NCBI RefSeq assembly: GCF_014653785.1
Contig: NZ_BNAS01000001.1
Coordinates: 543,898 to 607,897, forward strand
From: Promicromonospora soli
GTDB lineage: Bacteria; Actinomycetota; Actinomycetes; Actinomycetales; Cellulomonadaceae
Direction of reading: 5' to 3'
Length of the DNA: 64,000 nucleotides
This document shows positions 17,662-26,538 of this stretch, one piece after another (position 1 is the first letter of the stretch; the number at the start of each line of letters is the position of its first letter). The notes under the pieces were generated by a model. It saw nothing but the letters and a program-made list of their open reading frames with translations, ran no database searches and was not told the origin of the DNA. The translations under genes were made by a program, and so were the position numbers.

Positions 17662-18669
17662 TCAGCGGGGCGGCGGGGCCGTGGAGGACCGCTCCACCAG
17701 GGTGGTGGCCAGCTCCGTGCGGAGGGTGTGGCCGCTGGCCGTGCGCGCGCGGTGCACCAGGTCGACGGCGGTGGCGCCCATCTCCGCGAGCGGCTGGCGC
17801 ACCGTGGTGAGCGCCGGGTCGATCCAGGGAGCGATCGGCAGGTCGTCGAAGCCGACGAGCGAGACGTCGCGGGGTACCACCAGGCCCGCCTCGCGCAGGG
17901 CACGTAGGGCGCCGAGGGCGGTGTCGTCACTGCTGGCGAAGATCGCGGTGGGCGGGTCGTCCAGGCTCATCAGCCGCTGGGCGCCCTCGTACCCGGAGGT
18001 GACGCCGTAGGCGCCCACGTACACGAGCTCGTCGTCCGTGGGGGCGCCGGCCCGGATCATGGCGGCGCGGTAGCCCGCGAGCCGGGCGATGGCGTTGTCC
18101 TGCTCGAGCGCCCCGGTGATCGTGGCGATGCGCCGGTGGCCTAGCGACAGCAGGTGCGCCGTCGCCTCCAGCCCGCCCTGGAAGTTGGTGGCGCCGACAC
18201 TGAGCATCCCTTCCGGCGGCCGCTGCCGCGGGTCGACGACGACGAGCGGCGTTCCGGTGTCCTCCAGGGCCCGCCGCGCCTCGGCGTCGGGCACGGCGAC
18301 GATGCTGACCAGGCCGTCTGTGCCGCGCTCCAGGGCGTGCCGCACCCAGGAGCTGCAGTCGTCGGGATCGGGCTCGACCGCGAGCACCACGTCGAGGCCG
18401 AGCCGCCGTGCGCCGGCGACGGCGCCGCGGACCACGGCCTCGGACCACGTCCCCTCGAAGTCGACGATGCGGACGTCGATCATGCCCGTGGGCTTCGCCG
18501 ACCGGGGCCGGACCACGTAGCCGTGGCGCTCCAGCACCTCGGTGACGCGGGCGCGGGTCGAGCCGGCGACGTCGGGCCGGGTGTTGAGCACCTTGGAGAC
18601 CGTCGGGACCGAGACGCCGGCCTCAGCCGCCACGACGGCGAGCGGGATGTGCGGCCGATCCTGTGCCAT
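17662..18669 (-). CDS. LacI family transcriptional repressor
   Basis: 335 residues; GGAGGT precedes the ATG. An N-terminal LacI helix-turn-helix (PLAVVAAEAGVSVPTVSKVLN) and hinge are followed by a periplasmic-binding-protein-like sugar-sensing domain with the usual ATNFQGGLEATAHLLSLGHRRIA, SSDDTALGALRALREAGL and VSLVGFDDLPIAPWIDPALTTV blocks. It is transcribed away from the sugar transport and glycosidase operon and is almost certainly its local repressor. The effector should be an oligosaccharide or its breakdown product. Candidate operators lie on both sides of the operon promoter. Confidence 0.92.
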   Translation of the reverse strand: MAQDRPHIPLAVVAAEAGVSVPTVSKVLNTRPDVAGSTRARVTEVLERHGYVVRPRSAKPTGMIDVRIVDFEGTWSEAVVRGAVAGARRLGLDVVLAVEPDPDDCSSWVRHALERGTDGLVSIVAVPDAEARRALEDTGTPLVVVDPRQRPPEGMLSVGATNFQGGLEATAHLLSLGHRRIATITGALEQDNAIARLAGYRAAMIRAGAPTDDELVYVGAYGVTSGYEGAQRLMSLDDPPTAIFASSDDTALGALRALREAGLVVPRDVSLVGFDDLPIAPWIDPALTTVRQPLAEMGATAVDLVHRARTASGHTLRTELATTLVERSSTAPPPR

Positions 18670-18702
18670 GGGAGACCTCCGTCGGGCGTTGGCGGGTCAG
18701 CG

Positions 18703-18711
18703 TTTCCGAAA
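18703..18711. promoter_or_regulatory. Candidate LacI operator near the repressor gene
   Basis: TTTCCGAAA, a 4+1+4 palindrome, lies 34 bases upstream of the repressor start. A close relative (TTTCCGAGA) occurs just after the operon promoter at 18827, which suggests autoregulation. Confidence 0.4.
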
Positions 18712-18788
18712 TCAGGATCGTAGCGGAATCCGCCGGGTGCCCCGGCATTCGTCGAGCACATCGGCCATGCATCGGTCCGACCCGGCCG

Positions 18789-18817
18789 TTGACATGGACC
18801 GGCTCCGCGTCTAATCT
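18789..18817 (+). promoter_or_regulatory. Consensus promoter of the sugar operon
   Basis: TTGACA at 18789-18794, a 17-base spacer, and TAATCT at 18812-18817. This is the best consensus sigma-70-type promoter in the window. Transcription should begin near 18824, about 56 bases before the binding-protein start. Confidence 0.8.
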
Positions 18818-18826
18818 CCCGTGGTC

Positions 18827-18855
18827 TTTCCGAGATTCGGCTTCGAAATTTCGGA
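18827..18855. promoter_or_regulatory. Cluster of candidate LacI operators after the promoter
   Basis: Within 29 bases lie TTTCCGAGA (18827), the interrupted palindrome CCGA-N3-TCGG (18830-18839) and the perfect 10-bp palindrome CGAAATTTCG (18844-18853). They begin just after the predicted transcription start, where a bound repressor would block initiation or early elongation. Confidence 0.5.
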
Positions 18856-18879
18856 CTGCAGATCAACAAAGGAGTGATC

Positions 18880-20157
18880 GTGAACAGGACACCTCGCCTC
18901 GCCGCCGCGGCGACGGCGTCGACCCTCACGCTGGCCCTCGCCCTGACGGGTTGCGGACGCAGCGACGAGGCCGGCGCCCCGGCAGACAGCACGAGCAGCA
19001 TCTCGGAGGGCCCCGCGACCGGCACCGTCGAGGTGTGGGCGATGGGCACCGAGGGCGAGCTGCTGCCTGAGCTCGCCGAGCAGTTCGAGACCGACAACCC
19101 GGACGTCACCGTGAACGTCACGCCGGTGCCGTGGGAGTCGTCCACCGAGAAGATCAACACCGCCATCGCCACCGGCGAGGTGCCTGACGTCATGCAGGTC
19201 GGCACCACGCTCATGAGCGGTTTCGTGGAGCTCGGCGGCCTCGCACCCACTCCCCAGGACATCGACTCCGAGGCGTTCTTCCCGGGCGCCTGGGACACGA
19301 CAGTCGTCGACGGCACCTCCTACGGCGTGCCCTGGTACGTCGAGACGCGCGTCCTGTACTACCGCACCGATCTCGCCGAGGAGGCCGGCCTGGAGGCGCC
19401 CGCGACCTGGGCGGACCTGACGGCCTTCGCGGCCGGGCTGCAGGACGCCGGCGCCGAGCACGGCATCGCCCTGCAGACGCGCGGCAACTCCACCAGCCTC
19501 ATGTACCTCCCGTTCTACTGGCAGGCCGGCGGCGAGATCATGGACGACGCCGGCGAGTTCACGCTCGCCAACGACGCCCAGGCCAAGGCCCTGGACTACT
19601 ACTCGTCGTTCATGCGCGACGGCCTCGCCCCGCAGGTGCTCGTCGAGGACGAGAAGGTGCAGAACTTCATCGACGGAGATCTCGGCTCGTTCGTCTCCGG
19701 CCCGTGGGAGCGGGCGAACCTGCTGACCACCGCCGGCGACGACTTCGCCGACAAGTTCGGCGTGGTGCCGCTGCCCGACGACGAGACCACAGGGTCATTC
19801 ATCGGCGGCTCCAACCTCGCCGTCCTGGCCGACGCCGCCAACCCCGACGCCGCGTGGAAGTTCGTCCAGTACGCCACGGATCCGGCCACCCAGGTCGACT
19901 GGTTCGAGATCTCGAGCGACCTCCCGGCCGTCCAGGCCTCCTGGGAGGACCCGGCGCTGGCCGACGACGAGGCGGTCGCCGTCTACGGGGACGTGCTCGA
20001 GACCGCGCGTTCGACCCCGGCCATCCCCACCTGGGCCGAGATCGAGCACGAGCTCGACCTCATCATCGAACAGGTGATCGCCGGCGACCTGAGCCCCGAG
20101 GACGCGGCCGACCAGATGCAGGAAGCCGCCACCTCGATCGGGACGGGCCTGGACTAA
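18880..20157 (+). CDS. Sugar ABC transporter substrate-binding lipoprotein
   Basis: 425 residues from the GTG at 18880, six bases after AAAGGAG; a GTG at 18874 is too close to that site. The signal peptide ends in the lipobox LALTGC (about residue 25). The rest is a group 1 extracellular solute-binding protein: GTVEVWAMGTEGELLPELAEQFE, VTPVPWESSTEKINTAIATGEVPDV, YGVPWYVETRVLYYRTDL and the C-terminal DLIIEQVIAGDLSPEDAADQMQ. It captures oligosaccharides outside the membrane for the two permeases that follow. It is the first gene of the operon behind a consensus promoter. Confidence 0.93.
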   Translation: MNRTPRLAAAATASTLTLALALTGCGRSDEAGAPADSTSSISEGPATGTVEVWAMGTEGELLPELAEQFETDNPDVTVNVTPVPWESSTEKINTAIATGEVPDVMQVGTTLMSGFVELGGLAPTPQDIDSEAFFPGAWDTTVVDGTSYGVPWYVETRVLYYRTDLAEEAGLEAPATWADLTAFAAGLQDAGAEHGIALQTRGNSTSLMYLPFYWQAGGEIMDDAGEFTLANDAQAKALDYYSSFMRDGLAPQVLVEDEKVQNFIDGDLGSFVSGPWERANLLTTAGDDFADKFGVVPLPDDETTGSFIGGSNLAVLADAANPDAAWKFVQYATDPATQVDWFEISSDLPAVQASWEDPALADDEAVAVYGDVLETARSTPAIPTWAEIEHELDLIIEQVIAGDLSPEDAADQMQEAATSIGTGLD

Positions 20158-20159
20158 CC

Positions 20160-21050
20160 ATGGCCGTCACCGCGCGCCAGCGCCGCACCGGCCTCGCCGC
20201 CTGGGGCTTCGCGCTGCCCTTCACGGTCCTGTTCGCCGTGTTCATGCTGCTGCCGGTGGCGTCGTCGCTGTACATGGCGTTCACCGACATGCACGGCGCC
20301 GACCTCCGGACGCCCTTGGCCGTGAACTTCGTGGGCCTCGACAACTTCGTCGAGGTCCTCGCGGACCCGAAGTTCCAGCAGGCCGCCGGCAACACGCTGT
20401 ACTTCGTGGGCGTCGCCATGCCGCTCACGCTCGCGGTCGCGCTGCTCCTGGCGGTGCTGCTCAACTCGGGCCTGGTGTGGTTCCGGTCGGTGTTCCGCGT
20501 CGGGTTCTACGCGCCGGTCGTGACCTCGATCGTCGCGGTGGCGGTCGTCTGGCGGTTCCTGCTGCAGCCCGACTTCGGCCTGGTGAACTCGGCGCTCGGC
20601 CTGGTCGGCATCGACGGGCCCCGCTGGCTGACCGACGAGGTCTGGGCGATGCCGTCGCTGATCGTCATGGCGACCTGGCGCAACGTCGGGTACTCGATGG
20701 TGATCCTGCTCGCGGGGCTGCAGGGCATCCCGCGCGACCTGTACGAGGCGTCGGCCATCGACGGTGCGGGCGCGGTGCGGCAGTTCCGGTCCATCACGGT
20801 CCCGCTGCTGCGGCCCACGCTGCTGTTCTGCGCCGTCATCACCGGAATCGGCTACCTGCAGTTCTTCGAGGAACCGTTCGTCATGACGCAGGGCGGGCCG
20901 CTGGGCGCCACCAACTCGGTGGCGTACGAGATCTTCAACCAGTTCGGGTTCGGGAACTACGGCCTGTCCGCCGCGATGAGCTACATGCTGTTCGTCGCCA
21001 TCGTGATCCTGTCCTACCTCCAGTTCCGCCTGTTGCGGCCCAAGAGCTGA
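20160..21050 (+). CDS. Sugar ABC transporter permease (MalF type)
   Basis: 296 residues, starting two bases after the binding-protein stop. Six membrane helices are apparent, the first in ALPFTVLFAVFMLLPVASSL. The cytoplasmic EAA loop that contacts the ATPase is EASAIDGAGAVRQFRSITVPLL, near 195-216. It resembles CUT1-family permeases that import di- and oligosaccharides. The operon has no ATPase gene, so a shared ATPase such as MsiK encoded elsewhere must energise it, as in other actinobacteria. Confidence 0.93.
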   Translation: MAVTARQRRTGLAAWGFALPFTVLFAVFMLLPVASSLYMAFTDMHGADLRTPLAVNFVGLDNFVEVLADPKFQQAAGNTLYFVGVAMPLTLAVALLLAVLLNSGLVWFRSVFRVGFYAPVVTSIVAVAVVWRFLLQPDFGLVNSALGLVGIDGPRWLTDEVWAMPSLIVMATWRNVGYSMVILLAGLQGIPRDLYEASAIDGAGAVRQFRSITVPLLRPTLLFCAVITGIGYLQFFEEPFVMTQGGPLGATNSVAYEIFNQFGFGNYGLSAAMSYMLFVAIVILSYLQFRLLRPKS

Positions 21051-21081
21051 TGGCGCGCCCGTACCGGCGAGAGGACCGCCC

Positions 21082-21999
21082 ATGACCACCACGTCCCTGC
21101 CCACGGCGGGCGGCACGCCCGCTCCCGCTCCCACTCCGCCGGCCGCGAGCGCCCGGCTCGACGACGCGCCCCGCCGGCGCCGCTCCAGCCCGCGCGCGAT
21201 CCTCCTCAACGTCGCGCTCCTGGCCGGGCTCGCGGCCTCGCTCGGGCCGCTCGTCTGGATGGTCGTGTCGTCGGTCAAGCCAGAGGGCGAGATCCGGCAG
21301 TTCCCGCCCACGCTGATCCCCGACCAGGTGACGTGGACCAACTACACCGAGCTGTTCGCGTCGCTGAACTTCCCGCGGTACTTCCTCAACTCGGTCGTCG
21401 TGGCGCTGGTCGTGACCGTCGGGTCGGTCCTGTTCAGCGCGATGGTCGGCTACGCCCTGGCGAAGCTCGACTTCCCGGGCCGCCGCGCCCTCTTCGCGCT
21501 GGTCATGGGCACCCTGATGGTCCCGGGCATGGTCACGTTCGTGCCGCTCTTCGTGCTCGTAGCCAACTTGGACCTCATCAACACCTACGCGGCGCTCGTC
21601 CTGCCGTTCCTGGCGGCGCCGTTCGGCGTGTTCCTGATGCGGCAGTTCATGCTCGACGTCCCGGACGAGCTGCTCGACGCCGCGCGCGTCGACGGCGCCG
21701 GCGAGTTCCGGACGTTCTTCCGCATCGTCCTGCCGCAGACCCGGCCGGCGCTGGCGACGCTCGGAATCCTGACGTTCCTCGGGTCGTGGAACAACTTCCT
21801 GTGGCCCCTGGTCGCCGTGCAGTCGGCCGACAAGTACACGCTGCCCGTGGCGCTGGCCCTGTACTCGACCGGGCAGAACACCGTCCAGTACGGCCTGCTC
21901 GTCGCGGGCGCGACGGTCATCGTGCTGCCCATCCTCATCGTCTTCCTCGCCCTGCAGCGGCACATCGTGCAGGGCATCTCGACCACCGGCCTCAAGTAG
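21082..21999 (+). CDS. Sugar ABC transporter permease (MalG type)
   Basis: 305 residues, 31 bases after the first permease gene. A Pro/Ala-rich N-terminal tail precedes six membrane helices. The EAA motif is DAARVDGAGEFRTFFRIVLPQTRPALA (near 195-220 of the protein), the MalG-type partner of the preceding permease. Together with the binding protein it forms the membrane part of a CUT1 importer. Both permeases end in short charged tails. The GH1 gene starts nine bases after its stop. Confidence 0.93.
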   Translation: MTTTSLPTAGGTPAPAPTPPAASARLDDAPRRRRSSPRAILLNVALLAGLAASLGPLVWMVVSSVKPEGEIRQFPPTLIPDQVTWTNYTELFASLNFPRYFLNSVVVALVVTVGSVLFSAMVGYALAKLDFPGRRALFALVMGTLMVPGMVTFVPLFVLVANLDLINTYAALVLPFLAAPFGVFLMRQFMLDVPDELLDAARVDGAGEFRTFFRIVLPQTRPALATLGILTFLGSWNNFLWPLVAVQSADKYTLPVALALYSTGQNTVQYGLLVAGATVIVLPILIVFLALQRHIVQGISTTGLK

Positions 22000-22008
22000 G
22001 AGTTTTTC

Positions 22009-23193
22009 GTGACCGACCAGATCACGCTGCCCACCGCGCCCGACTTCCTGTGGGGCGCCTCGACCGCCGCGCACCAGATCGAGGGGGGCAACGTCAACAG
22101 CGACTGGTGGGCGAAGGAGCACGTCGCCGGGACGCTGTGCGCGGAGAGCTCCGGCGACGCCGTCGACAGCTATCACCGCTACCCGGAGGACGTCCGCCTG
22201 CTCGCGGACGCCGGCCTGAGCGCGTACCGCTTCTCGATCGAGTGGGCGCGGATCGAGCCCGCCGAGGGCGAGATCTCGCGGGCGCAGCTGGCGCACTACC
22301 GGCGCATGATCGACACGTGCCTCGCGGCCGGGGTGACGCCGGTGGTCACGCTCCTGCACTTCACCCTGCCGCGGTGGTTCGCGGAGCGCGGCGGCTGGTT
22401 CGCGCCCGACGCCGTCGACGCGTTCAGCCGCTACGTCGAGATCGCGACGGACATCCTGGGCGACGTGCACCACGTGGTCACGATCAACGAGCCCAACATC
22501 ACCTCGATGATGCTCGGCGCGAGCCGGCGCACGAACCTCGACGCCGCGGGGCTCGCCGCCCCGGACCAGGCCGCCTCCGAGGTCCAGGCGACGGCGCACC
22601 GCCGGGCCGTCGAGATCCTGCACGGCCTGGGGCACGTGCGGGCCGGATGGACCATCGCCAACCAGGTTTTCCAGGCCGCGCCGGGGGCCGAGGCAGCACG
22701 CGACGGGTACGCCTACCCGCGCGAGGACTTCTTCCTCGAGGTCGCGCGCGGCGACGACTTCGTCGGCGTGCAGAGCTACCTGCGCACGGTCATCGGGGCG
22801 GACGGCGAGCCGGTGCCGGCCGGCGACGACGTCGAACGCACCCTCACCGGGTGGGAGTACTACCCGCAGGCGCTGGGCGAGGCGCTCGGGTACACCCACC
22901 GCATCACAGGCGGCGTGCCGATGATCGTCACCGAGAACGGCATCGCGACCGCCGACGACTCCCGCCGCATCGACTACACCCGGGACGCCCTGGCGGGCAT
23001 GGCCCGCGCGATGGCCGGCGGCTGCCGTGTCGAGGGGTACCTCCACTGGTCGCTGCTCGACAACTACGAGTGGATGAGCGGCTTCGCCCCGACGTTCGGC
23101 CTGGTCGCCGTCGACCGCACGACGTTCGAGCGCACGCCCAAGCCGAGCCTCGCGTGGCTCGGCAAGGTAGCCCGCACGGGCGAGCTGCCCTGA
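22009..23193 (+). CDS. GH1 beta-glucosidase
   Basis: 394 residues from a GTG with AGGAG about eight bases upstream. GH1 motifs are intact: FLWGASTAAHQIEG at the N-terminus, FSIEWARIEP, acid/base E161 in TINEPN, nucleophile E309 in VTENG, and HWSLLDNYEWMSGF. There is no signal peptide, so it acts in the cytoplasm. It is 50-80 residues shorter than most GH1 enzymes (about 450-480), with GVQSYLRT where GINYY is usual, so its active-site entrance may be more open. Placed behind the transporter, it should hydrolyse imported beta-linked oligosaccharides to glucose. Confidence 0.9.
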   Translation: MTDQITLPTAPDFLWGASTAAHQIEGGNVNSDWWAKEHVAGTLCAESSGDAVDSYHRYPEDVRLLADAGLSAYRFSIEWARIEPAEGEISRAQLAHYRRMIDTCLAAGVTPVVTLLHFTLPRWFAERGGWFAPDAVDAFSRYVEIATDILGDVHHVVTINEPNITSMMLGASRRTNLDAAGLAAPDQAASEVQATAHRRAVEILHGLGHVRAGWTIANQVFQAAPGAEAARDGYAYPREDFFLEVARGDDFVGVQSYLRTVIGADGEPVPAGDDVERTLTGWEYYPQALGEALGYTHRITGGVPMIVTENGIATADDSRRIDYTRDALAGMARAMAGGCRVEGYLHWSLLDNYEWMSGFAPTFGLVAVDRTTFERTPKPSLAWLGKVARTGELP

Positions 23194-23271
23194 GCCGAAG
23201 GGCCGACGGCGGCCGCCCGGCCACAGACCGCACGACCCGTCACGACTACGACGACGTAGAGGAGACACATC

Positions 23272-24807
23272 ATGAGGAGACACAGAACAGCGGTCGCGGC
23301 GGCCGCCGTCGCCGCCCTGGCGCTCATGGCCGCGCCGGCGACCGCAGGCACGGGCGAGGCGTCGCGGAACACCGGGGGCGACGAGCGCCTGCTGAACACC
23401 TGGGCGGCCGACACCTGGCGCTCTTTCGACGCGCTGGTCGTCGAGGAGACGGGGCTGCCCGACGACAACATCGGAGGCGACCTCAGCCCAGGCAGCCGAG
23501 GCGGGTACACCTCCCCGACCAACATCGGCGCCTACCTCTGGAGCACGGTGGTGGCCCGCGACCTCGGGCTGATCGGCGCGGACGAGGCCCGCGCCCGCAT
23601 GGCGACCACGCTGGACACCGTCGCCCGGCTGGAGAAGCACGAGCCCAGCGGCATGTTCTACAACTGGTACGACCCGGCCACGGGCGCCAAGCTCACGACG
23701 TTCCCCGGCTCGGGCGACGCAGTCAAGCCCTTCCTGTCCAGCGTGGACAACGGCTGGCTGGCCACCGGCCTGCTCCTGGCGAGCCGCGCGGAGCCGTCCC
23801 TGGCCGACGAGGCGGACGCCGTCCGCGAGCGCATGGACTTCGGCTGCTACTACGACCCGGCGCAGAACCAGATCCGCGGCGGGTTCTGGGACACCGACCC
23901 GCAGGAGCCGGCGCCCGTCCCGGGCGACTACTGCGGGATGGGCGCCGACGTCTGGTACACCGGCCACCACTACGGCGCGTTCAACACCGAGCCGCGGATC
24001 GCGTCCTACCTCGGCATCGCCGGGGAGCAGATCCCGGCGAAGCACTACTTCGGCACGTACCGCACCTTCCCCGACACCTGCGACTGGGACTGGACCGAGA
24101 CGCGACCGGCCGGCGAGTGGGCCGAGCACCTGGGGGTCCCCGTCTTCGAGGGCGCCCTGCCGTACCGCGGCATGCGGGTGGTCCCGTCCTGGGGCGGCAG
24201 CATGTTCGAGGCGCTGATGGTGCCGCTCTTCGTGCCGGAGGAGACGTGGGGTCCTCGGTCGTGGGGCCGCAACCACCCGCTGTACGTACGCGGGCAGATC
24301 GAGCACGGGATGCGGGAGGCGGGCTACGGGTACTGGGGCTTCTCGCCGTCGAACAACCCGGCCGGCGGGTACCGCGAGTACGGCGTCGACCAGCTGGGGC
24401 TGGACGGCGCGGGCTACACGTCCGACCAGGAGCGCACCGCCGTCGACCAGCCGTACGCAGGCTGCAGGGACGGCTCGCCCGCTCCCACCGAGTACGGCGA
24501 CGGCGTCGTGACGCCGCACGCGTCGTTCCTCGCGCTGCGGTACGCCCCCGGCGAGGCGATCGCCAACCTGCAGCGCATCTCCCGGGACTTCGACGCCTAC
24601 GGCCCGGGCGGTTTCTACGACGCCGTGGCGGTCCGCAGCGGCCAGGTCTCCCAGCGCTACCTGGCCCTGGACCAGGGCATGATCATGGCCGCGCTGGGCA
24701 ACGAGCTGGCCGACGACGCCGTGCGGCGCTACGTCTCGGAAGGCGCCCTGGAGCAGAAGGTCCGCCCACTGATGAAGATGGAGGAGTTCGCCGTCGGGCG
24801 GCGGTAG
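23272..24807 (+). CDS. Secreted PF10091-type glucanase (GH144/GH189-like)
   Basis: 511 residues with a clear Sec signal peptide (MRRHRTAVAAAAVAALALM, cleaved after PATA). The mature part has TSPTNIGAYLWSTVVARDLG, FYNWYDPATG, SVDNGWLATGLL and a terminal LALDQGMIMAALGN. These blocks are typical of the 'glucoamylase' domain PF10091, which includes GH144 endo-beta-1,2-glucanases and the GH189 central domain of cyclic beta-1,2-glucan synthases. I infer an extracellular enzyme that cuts a glucan into fragments for the adjacent transporter. Beta-1,2-glucan is the most likely substrate but is not proven. It is the last gene before a hairpin terminator. Confidence 0.75.
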   Translation: MRRHRTAVAAAAVAALALMAAPATAGTGEASRNTGGDERLLNTWAADTWRSFDALVVEETGLPDDNIGGDLSPGSRGGYTSPTNIGAYLWSTVVARDLGLIGADEARARMATTLDTVARLEKHEPSGMFYNWYDPATGAKLTTFPGSGDAVKPFLSSVDNGWLATGLLLASRAEPSLADEADAVRERMDFGCYYDPAQNQIRGGFWDTDPQEPAPVPGDYCGMGADVWYTGHHYGAFNTEPRIASYLGIAGEQIPAKHYFGTYRTFPDTCDWDWTETRPAGEWAEHLGVPVFEGALPYRGMRVVPSWGGSMFEALMVPLFVPEETWGPRSWGRNHPLYVRGQIEHGMREAGYGYWGFSPSNNPAGGYREYGVDQLGLDGAGYTSDQERTAVDQPYAGCRDGSPAPTEYGDGVVTPHASFLALRYAPGEAIANLQRISRDFDAYGPGGFYDAVAVRSGQVSQRYLALDQGMIMAALGNELADDAVRRYVSEGALEQKVRPLMKMEEFAVGRR

Positions 24808-24848
24808 CCCGCCCGAGTGTCGGTGGCCGTGAATAGCATCGTCGCGGG

Positions 24849-24869
24849 AGGCCCCGCCCGCCGGGGCCT
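24849..24869 (+). terminator. Hairpin terminator after the glucanase gene
   Basis: AGGCCCCG (24849-24856) pairs perfectly with CGGGGCCT (24862-24869) over a 5-base loop and is followed by TTCCG. It lies 41 bases after the glucanase stop and 29 bases before the GH13 start. It would separate or attenuate transcription into the GH13 gene. Confidence 0.6.
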
Positions 24870-24897
24870 TCCGCACCACCTACGAAGGGGCAGACCG

Positions 24898-26538
24898 TTG
24901 ACCTCCACCGCAGTGGACCTCGCCGCACGCCTGGGGCGCACCGTGCTCTACCAGATCTACCCGCAGTCCTTCGCGGACGCGAACCGCGACGGGATCGGGG
25001 ACCTGGCCGGCATCACCGAGCGCCTGGACTACCTCGCCTGGCTCGGGGTGGACGCGCTCTGGCTCAGCCCGTGCTTCGTCTCGCCGTTCGCCGACGCCGG
25101 GTACGACGTCGCGGACTACTTCCAGGTGGCCCCGCGCTACGGCACGAACGAGGACATGGCCCGGCTGACCGAGGAGGCCGGCCGCCGCGGCATCTCCGTG
25201 CTGCTCGACCTCGTGGCCGGCCACACCTCGGACCAGCACCCGTGGTTCCGCGCGTCCACCGACGACCCGGACGATGACCGGTTCGTCTGGAGCGACCTGC
25301 CGGTGGACGGGTTCCAGGCCGGCCCAGGCGCGCGCGGCGGGTACTACCGGCCCAACTTCTTCCCCTTCCAGCCCGCGCTGAACTACGGCTACGCGCGCTC
25401 CGATCCCGCCGAGCCGTGGCGGCTTCCGGTCGACGCCCCGGGTCCGCTGGCCAACCGCGCCGCCCTGCGCGAGATCATGTCGCACTGGTTCGGCCTCGGG
25501 GTCGCGGGCTTCCGCGTCGACATGGCGTCGTCGCTGGTCAAGGATGATCCGGGGCATGTTGAGACGGGCCGGCTGTGGCGCGAGATGCGCGCCTGGCTGG
25601 ACGACTCCTACCCCGGGCGGGTGCTGATCAGCGAGTGGGGCAACCCGCGGGTCGCCGTCCCGGCCGGCTTCCACGTCGACTTCTTCCTCCAGTTCGGGGG
25701 CGACGACGACGGGCTCCCGTTCCGGTCGCTGTGGAACAACGGCGCCGGGACGGTGAACCAGTCCTGGGGCGAGGTACCGGCCTGGGCCGGCGCCGACGGG
25801 GACGGGGACGCCGGCACGTTCGTCGAGGCCTGGCAGGCTGCGGCCGACGCCATAGCGGCGACCGGCCGCGGCGGGGTGGTGGGCCTGCCGACGTCGAACC
25901 ACGACTTCACGCGGCTGGTGGCCGGCGCGCGCGACGCCGAGCAGGCCCGCGTCGCCCACGTCCTCACGATGACCTGGCCCGCCCTGCCGTCCGTCTACTA
26001 CGGGGACGAGATCGGCATGCGGTACGTGCCCGGGACCCCGACCCTGGAGGGCTCCCGCCTGAGCCCCACCTACGACAGGGCCGGCTCACGCACGCCGATG
26101 CAGTGGGGCGGTCTCCCGGCCGGAACACTCGGCCCGGGGAGCCCCGCGACCCCCACGTACCTGCCGCAGGACCCCGACCCCGGCCTGCCCACCGTCGCCG
26201 GCCAGCTGGGCGACGAGAGCTCGCTGCTGCACCTGGTGCGCGAGCTCATCGCCCTGCGGCATCGCGACGACCGCCTCGACGTCGACTCTCCCGTCGAGGT
26301 GCTCGCCTCCGGGTACCCCATGGCGTACCTCCGGGGCGGCACGCTCGCGATCGTGCTCAACCCGGGCCGCCTGGACGTGCGGTTCCAGCTCGACGGCGCC
26401 GCCCGGGCCAAGCCGCTCGTGGCCCGCGGGTGCCGCACCGAGGCGGGCGACGGCAGGCACGACATCGTCCACCTCGACGGGCACGGCTACGCCGTCCTGG
26501 ACCTGGACGCGCCCGAGAGCTTCCGGCACGCGCGTTAG
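24898..26538 (+). CDS. GH13 alpha-glucosidase/amylase family enzyme
   Basis: 546 residues from a TTG at 24898 that follows AAGGGG by about eight bases; upstream in-frame starts would run through the terminator. GH13 regions: LYQIYPQSFADANRDGIGD, DALWLSPCFVSPFADAGYDV, LDLVAGHTSDQHPWF, nucleophile D208 in GFRVD, acid/base E246 in ISEWG, and stabiliser D336 in TSNHD. The layout is that of oligosaccharide-acting alpha-glucosidases rather than secreted amylases, and there is no signal peptide. It acts on alpha-linkages, which is odd beside a beta-glucan set; it may belong to a separate transcription unit. Confidence 0.85.
   Translation: MTSTAVDLAARLGRTVLYQIYPQSFADANRDGIGDLAGITERLDYLAWLGVDALWLSPCFVSPFADAGYDVADYFQVAPRYGTNEDMARLTEEAGRRGISVLLDLVAGHTSDQHPWFRASTDDPDDDRFVWSDLPVDGFQAGPGARGGYYRPNFFPFQPALNYGYARSDPAEPWRLPVDAPGPLANRAALREIMSHWFGLGVAGFRVDMASSLVKDDPGHVETGRLWREMRAWLDDSYPGRVLISEWGNPRVAVPAGFHVDFFLQFGGDDDGLPFRSLWNNGAGTVNQSWGEVPAWAGADGDGDAGTFVEAWQAAADAIAATGRGGVVGLPTSNHDFTRLVAGARDAEQARVAHVLTMTWPALPSVYYGDEIGMRYVPGTPTLEGSRLSPTYDRAGSRTPMQWGGLPAGTLGPGSPATPTYLPQDPDPGLPTVAGQLGDESSLLHLVRELIALRHRDDRLDVDSPVEVLASGYPMAYLRGGTLAIVLNPGRLDVRFQLDGAARAKPLVARGCRTEAGDGRHDIVHLDGHGYAVLDLDAPESFRHAR

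Follow-up and report, generated by a model that had tools for sequence, protein, structure and literature searches.

A predicted Streptomyces griseus-type locus for beta-1,2-glucan utilisation in Promicromonospora soli

Introduction

In Streptomyces griseus, the cluster sgr_2422-2427 joins an ATP-binding cassette (ABC) transporter to a beta-1,2-glucan-specific enzyme of glycoside hydrolase family 1 (GH1) and a GH193 enzyme, as excerpts of an article of August 2025 set out (PMC12369401). According to the same excerpts, its GH1 enzyme, SGR_2426, strongly prefers beta-1,2-glucooligosaccharides as substrates over those with other beta-linkages, and Lin1841 of Listeria innocua is a binder of the sophoro-oligosaccharides (Sop) Sop3-5. 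The proven founder of GH193, SkSGL from Sanguibacter keddieii, is an inverting hydrolase (PMC12102758). Here we describe a locus in a 64,000-nucleotide stretch of the Promicromonospora soli genome (NCBI RefSeq assembly GCF_014653785.1, contig NZ_BNAS01000001.1, positions 543,898 to 607,897 of the forward strand), referred to below as the window. Between window positions 17662 and 26538 lie, in this order, a divergent lacI gene and genes for a solute-binding protein (SBP), two permeases, a GH1 enzyme, a secreted protein with the domain PF10091 and a GH13 enzyme. It is very probably a beta-1,2-glucan utilisation locus of the already published S. griseus type. A literature search yielded no paper linking beta-1,2-glucan with Promicromonospora, and the parts of the locus most worth following are its promoter-operator evidence, its retained GH13 gene and the exchange of GH1 for GH39 among relatives.

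Results

The secreted enzyme and its family

Over the catalytic domain, the secreted protein is identical to SkSGL at 286 of 505 residues (57%). SkSGL has D160 as its candidate general base and E246 as its candidate general acid; their counterparts in the window protein are D159 (23746-23748) and E240 (23989-23991), and among 63 relatives the aspartate is kept in 63 and the glutamate in 61. These alignments place the predicted enzyme in GH193, not in GH144, GH189 or GH162. The preliminary description of this DNA, made from the sequence alone, had rightly recognised the PF10091 domain (54.6 bits against a cut-off of 27) and had called the family GH144/GH189, in place of which GH193, a family it did not name, now stands. 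Membership of GH144 was considered and rejected, the comparison with CpSGL (5gzh) giving 23 bits, below the 85 bits of the GH189 chain 8rf9, next to the high identity to SkSGL. In a tree of aligned pieces from 31 GH193-like and 4 outgroup sequences (328 columns), drawn to see whether GH193 branches apart from GH189, GH144 and GH192, the window protein, SkSGL and an S. griseus relative group together on short branches and the outgroups sit on long ones, with weak deep support (81.9/45).

A fold model built from 63 sequences, which replaced a 16-sequence model of mediocre pLDDT (predicted local distance difference test, 78.5), predicts an (alpha/alpha)6-barrel, as in solved members of the SGL clan (GH-S type). 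The invariant F312 in the motif MFE is the likely counterpart of the conserved clan phenylalanine (for the clan: F286, Y367 of XcSGL). Among solved structures, the best matches in both sequence and fold are GH189 domains, as would be expected of a retaining transglycosylase akin to GH189, acting on beta-1,2-glucan by cyclisation or disproportionation. We hold this to be very improbable: the GH189 nucleophile, E1442 of TiCGSTg and E1386 of RrCGS in excerpts of PMC11842490, aligns with Pro359 (WGFS-P), which is invariant in the 63 sequences; the window protein is a single chain of 511 residues with Pfam matches to PF10091 and DUF3131 only and no glycosyltransferase (GT) or GH94 domain, unlike the large membrane synthase; and SkSGL, to which it is 57% identical, hydrolyses with inversion (PMC12102758). 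As a GH193 member, the window enzyme would be expected to cleave beta-1,2-glucan endolytically and with inversion.

Variants of the secreted protein were met in other genomes. Two distant PF10091-type proteins (L164:8995-10455 and L165:9087-10544, 39-40% identical to the window protein) have an aspartate in place of the catalytic glutamate and another residue at two conserved tyrosines, and possibly form a separate group. The genome of locus L025, from a related genus, holds a partial second GH193 copy (G044:C1:3417862-3418386) some 31 kb away from the complete one, 82% identical and spanning window residues 334-508. SkSGL itself (L163) and the L009 protein carry C-terminal extensions with LAQTG- or LANTG-type sorting signals and a membrane stretch, as read by eye, which suggests surface anchoring of GH193; the window protein is without such a signal.

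The GH1 enzyme, the binding protein and the substrate

SGR_2426 is the best solved match of the window GH1 (E 2.3e-145; 227 of 387 residues identical), and its subsite +1 residues W291 and Q229 are W282 and Q219 in the window enzyme, which would fit a specificity for beta-1,2-glucooligosaccharides here as well. The second-best Protein Data Bank (PDB) match of the SBP is Lin1841 (E 7.7e-63). The preliminary description had proposed beta-1,2-glucan as the substrate and a pathway made of a secreted cutter, an importer and an intracellular beta-glucosidase; both proposals are now strongly supported by near relatives of the two enzymes with biochemically proven activity. A locus feeding on plant or microbial sophorosides, or on another short beta-glucoside, rather than on the beta-1,2-glucan polymer would be in keeping with the cleavage of p-nitrophenyl (pNP)-glucoside and, weakly, laminaribiose by SGR_2426 and with free Sop-n being known mainly as sophorosides (excerpts of PMC12369401). 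We consider it unlikely, as a secreted endo-enzyme would be of little use on disaccharide glycosides.

Locus layout

The genes named in the preliminary description are present as open reading frames where it had placed them, with the Pfam families it gave (Table 1; Peripla_BP_3 125 bits, LacI 42, SBP_bac_1 154, BPD_transp_1 41 and 76, Glyco_hydro_1 235), and the secreted protein is the sole PF10091 match found in the 5.38 Mb genome. Judged from its ribosome site, the SBP more likely starts at GTG 18880. The SBP, permease, GH1 and secreted-protein genes do lie together as the proposed single operon has them; lacI is divergent and therefore not inside it, while the gene set probably extends to the GH13 gene. 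None of the locus genes encodes an ATPase. The importer would be powered by a shared ATPase encoded elsewhere, and a single match to PF17912 (MalK-type) in the genome, on another contig, is in line with this. The nearest named relatives belong to Promicromonospora and Myceligenerans, where the secreted protein is 86-92% identical. With NCBIfam the GH193 protein remained unmatched, and among the matches listed for the other proteins (25 of 33 for GH13) none attained the cut-off.

Table 1. Positions of genes and sites of the locus, numbered from the first base of the window
Feature	Position	Strand	Basis
LacI-family repressor	17662..18669	-	Pfam; orthologues (71-80% identity) adjoin GH193 in Sanguibacter and Cellulosimicrobium
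Candidate operator GTTTCCGAAATC before lacI	18702..18713		aligns in most relatives compared
Promoter: TTGACA (18789-18794), 17-base spacer, weak TAATCT (18812-18817)	18789..18817	+	read from the sequence
Candidate operator CTTTCCGAGATTC near transcription start	18826..18838		alignment of relatives, genome count
Palindrome CGAAATTTCG, candidate operator	18844..18853		conservation between lacI and SBP
ABC solute-binding lipoprotein	18874..20157	+	Pfam; lipobox LTGC by eye
ABC permease 1	20160..21050	+	Pfam
ABC permease 2	21082..21999	+	Pfam
GH1 beta-glucosidase	22009..23193	+	Pfam, alignment to SGR_2426; signal peptide not evident
Secreted GH193 endo-beta-1,2-glucanase (predicted)	23272..24807	+	Pfam, alignment; signal peptide at about 23272-23349 by eye
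Hairpin, 13-base arms, without T run	24844..24874	+	between GH193 and GH13
GH13 alpha-glucosidase-like protein	24898..26538	+	Pfam; TTG start inferred from ribosome site; signal peptide not evident

Promoter and candidate operators

The promoter was judged from cross-species alignment: among loci with this lacI and SBP, TTGACA and TAATCT align by eye in those of Promicromonospora and Myceligenerans and in two of Isoptericola. What had been called a consensus promoter holds good for its perfect TTGACA and 17-base spacer, but the -10 hexamer is weak and a stock sigma-70 scan of the region reported no promoter. A stock terminator scan gave a single terminator-like site, which falls within the SBP gene.

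Across the whole genome there are two copies of the pattern TTTCCGARATYMGG, both of them in the lacI-SBP intergenic region (the 18702 site and 18827). Of 19 loci examined, 12 carry the palindrome CGAAATTTCG upstream of the SBP gene, as the window does. The remaining seven comprise L056, with a non-orthologous LacI (31%), and six loci in which a LacI orthologue (71-80%) adjoins GH193; five of these six, S. keddieii included, have CGAAATTTCG once, on the upstream side of GH193, and it is absent from the sixth (L115). By arithmetic, at roughly 70% G+C chance alone would give this 10-base palindrome about 0.003 times in 20 kb. In the S. griseus-type loci L170-L172 neither motif was found. This distribution suggests that LacI may bind CGAAATTTCG and the TTTCCGARAT candidate sites. 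New here, along with the retained GH13 gene and the GH39 proteins near GH193 described below, is that CGAAATTTCG accompanies this LacI and GH193, including at the locus of the proven S. keddieii enzyme.

Distribution and the GH39 exchange

Within the order, 23 of 149 genomes gave GH193-like matches; within the family 66 of 221 did, including 12 of the 13 listed for the genus. In a named scan, 567 candidate stretches yielded 546 confirmed relatives, of which the best 80 were kept, so that every count out of 80 covers the nearest relatives only. The survey of window genes left out matches below 100 bits; both it and the counts of neighbouring GH13, GH39 and GH1 genes cover short contigs too, where a neighbour may lie beyond the contig end; and downstream genes were called in 58 of the 80 loci, leaving out short loci and missed GH193 frames.

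A GH39 protein is encoded in the same stretch as GH193 in 37 of the 80 loci, mostly directly downstream, with one further partial match; five of the type were checked with Pfam (PF01229). GH39 and GH1 (at least 55% identity) never occur together (0 of 80), GH1 being found in 16 loci and neither of the two in 27, some of them on short contigs. The GH39 loci come from Nocardioides, Micromonospora, Planomonospora and others (for example L086:11421-13247). The GH39 protein is a candidate further beta-1,2-glucosidase; in one paper bringing up both GH39 and beta-1,2-glucan, GH39 is named in a reference title only.

Other glycoside hydrolase genes appeared singly: a GH31 gene adjoining GH193 (L077:11496-14018; 1 of 80 loci), a GH35 gene heading the cluster (L056:4709-6946; 1 of 80) and, in an Anaerolineae record, a GH94 gene adjoining the GH193 cluster (L106:11583-13940; a single case). 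The downstream genes of L068, L070 and L072, from a crude gene caller, had no Pfam match.

The GH13 gene at the end of the locus

The GH13 protein keeps the motifs FRVD, ISEW and NHD. Several specificities are conceivable, as its best solved matches are trehalose synthases and alpha-glucosidases of different types. It could be an unrelated neighbour, an ordinary maltose, isomaltose or trehalose enzyme outside the beta-1,2-glucan pathway, and we think this rather probable. GH13 genes are common, with 15 PF00128 matches in the 5.38 Mb of its own genome; the hairpin stands between it and GH193, with inverted repeats seen by eye at the same gap in several relatives; and of 394 genomes searched, the 11 others with a match carry GH13 homologues (49-77%) that have no window-type locus gene nearby. 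No shared theme emerged among the neighbours of homologues elsewhere (9 neighbour genes, 4 loci scanned).

Against an unrelated neighbour speaks its constancy. The gene is retained with the block in all 10 Promicromonospora and Myceligenerans loci, and in L049 and L051 neither plsC nor purC was found next to it. Window-type GH13 (at least 70% identity) is present in 12 of the 80 named loci, all from Promicromonospora, Myceligenerans or Isoptericola. In L056, an Isoptericola locus with rearranged gene order, it lies upstream of GH1 and GH193; in L057 it lies about 9 kb away, and in L058 it was not found. A second GH13 type occurs near GH193 in six other loci, three of them Pfam-checked. Altogether, GH13 is near GH193 in 18 of 80 stretches against some 4-5 expected by chance (arithmetic, 20 kb each), with 12 of the 18 from three related genera.

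A role within the pathway can be imagined. Xanthomonas, Ralstonia and Cereibacter have alpha-1,6-cyclised beta-1,2-glucans as their cyclic glucans, and, after a small literature search, we know of no described pathway for the complete breakdown of such glucans. They contain exactly one alpha-1,6 bond (excerpts of PMC11228985 and PMC11842490), and an alpha-1,6-glucosidase would therefore complete their breakdown. It is a tentative and doubtful idea that the locus finishes off such glucans: GH193 would open the ring extracellularly, the fragments would be imported, GH1 would shorten them as far as the one alpha-1,6 bond, and GH13 would cut that bond in the cytoplasm; if so, other alpha-glucosidase-type genes near GH193 (the second GH13 type, GH31) would act alike. 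A word search of PMC11842490 and PMC11228985 found no mention of GH13; in PMC12369401 it gave one hit, where GH131 also matches. A literature search for GH13 in beta-1,2-glucan breakdown brought up papers on phosphorylases.

Discussion

Protein families, kinship to proven enzymes, catalytic and specificity residues, the predicted fold, synteny and site conservation are established for this locus. On these we build its likely activity, secretion, import, repression and inducer: very probably, it is a sophoro-oligosaccharide utilisation locus of the S. griseus type, with GH193 cutting, import, GH1 and LacI control. The secreted GH193 enzyme would cleave beta-1,2-glucan by endolytic, inverting hydrolysis; the lipoprotein and two permeases, with an ATPase from elsewhere, would import the oligosaccharides; the cytoplasmic GH1 would release glucose from their non-reducing end; and the divergent LacI would repress the locus through CGAAATTTCG and the TTTCCGARAT sites until an imported sugar frees it.

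Several observations weigh against this reading. The position of M171 in SGR_2426 is taken by I164 in the window GH1, although a hydrophobic exchange of this kind is reported among SGR_2426 homologues (excerpts of PMC12369401). Among solved structures, the SBP is matched best not by Lin1841 but by 3uor, a sugar-binding protein. The deep nodes of the tree are weakly supported, and identity and residues therefore carry the GH193 claim. Finally, L170, from a relative of S. griseus, has a LacI only 29% identical to that of the window, on the same strand as the SBP gene and about 2.6 kb from it, and lacks CGAAATTTCG.

The preliminary description had argued that a GH1/LacI version of such a locus would be different from those known. 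The published S. griseus ABC-GH1-GH193 cluster (excerpts of PMC12369401) has overtaken this argument, and the L170 genome, with a GH1 97% identical to SGR_2426, has the window's own order, SBP-ABC-ABC-GH1-GH193; the case for novelty therefore fails. What the window adds is a clear member of the pathway outside Streptomyces, which a shared regulator and palindrome tie to the S. keddieii enzyme, and a regulon that becomes predictable across genera through the shared LacI and CGAAATTTCG. Action of GH13 on the alpha-1,6 bond and of the GH39 protein as a further beta-1,2-glucosidase are testable questions.

The S. griseus cluster resembles the window in its ABC importer with a Lin1841-like binder, its GH1 beta-1,2-glucosidase and its GH193; it differs in a listed esterase gene, SGR_2422, and excerpts of PMC12369401 make no mention of LacI. 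In L170, GH193 is 49% identical to the window protein and window-type GH13 was not found. In S. keddieii, the catalytic domain of SkSGL is 57% identical to that of the window enzyme, a LacI orthologue (72%) is encoded next to it, and CGAAATTTCG stands upstream of the SkSGL gene. SkSGL differs in extending further at its C-terminus, with an Ig-like domain (PMC12102758) and the LAQTG-type signal at the end, neither of which the window protein has, and no SBP, ABC or GH1 match lies in the 19.5 kb covered at that locus. The lin1839-1841 genes of L. innocua likewise combine an importer having a Sop-n-binding protein with intracellular breakdown, but there a GH94 phosphorylase and a GH3 beta-glucosidase replace GH193 and GH1 (excerpts of PMC12369401).

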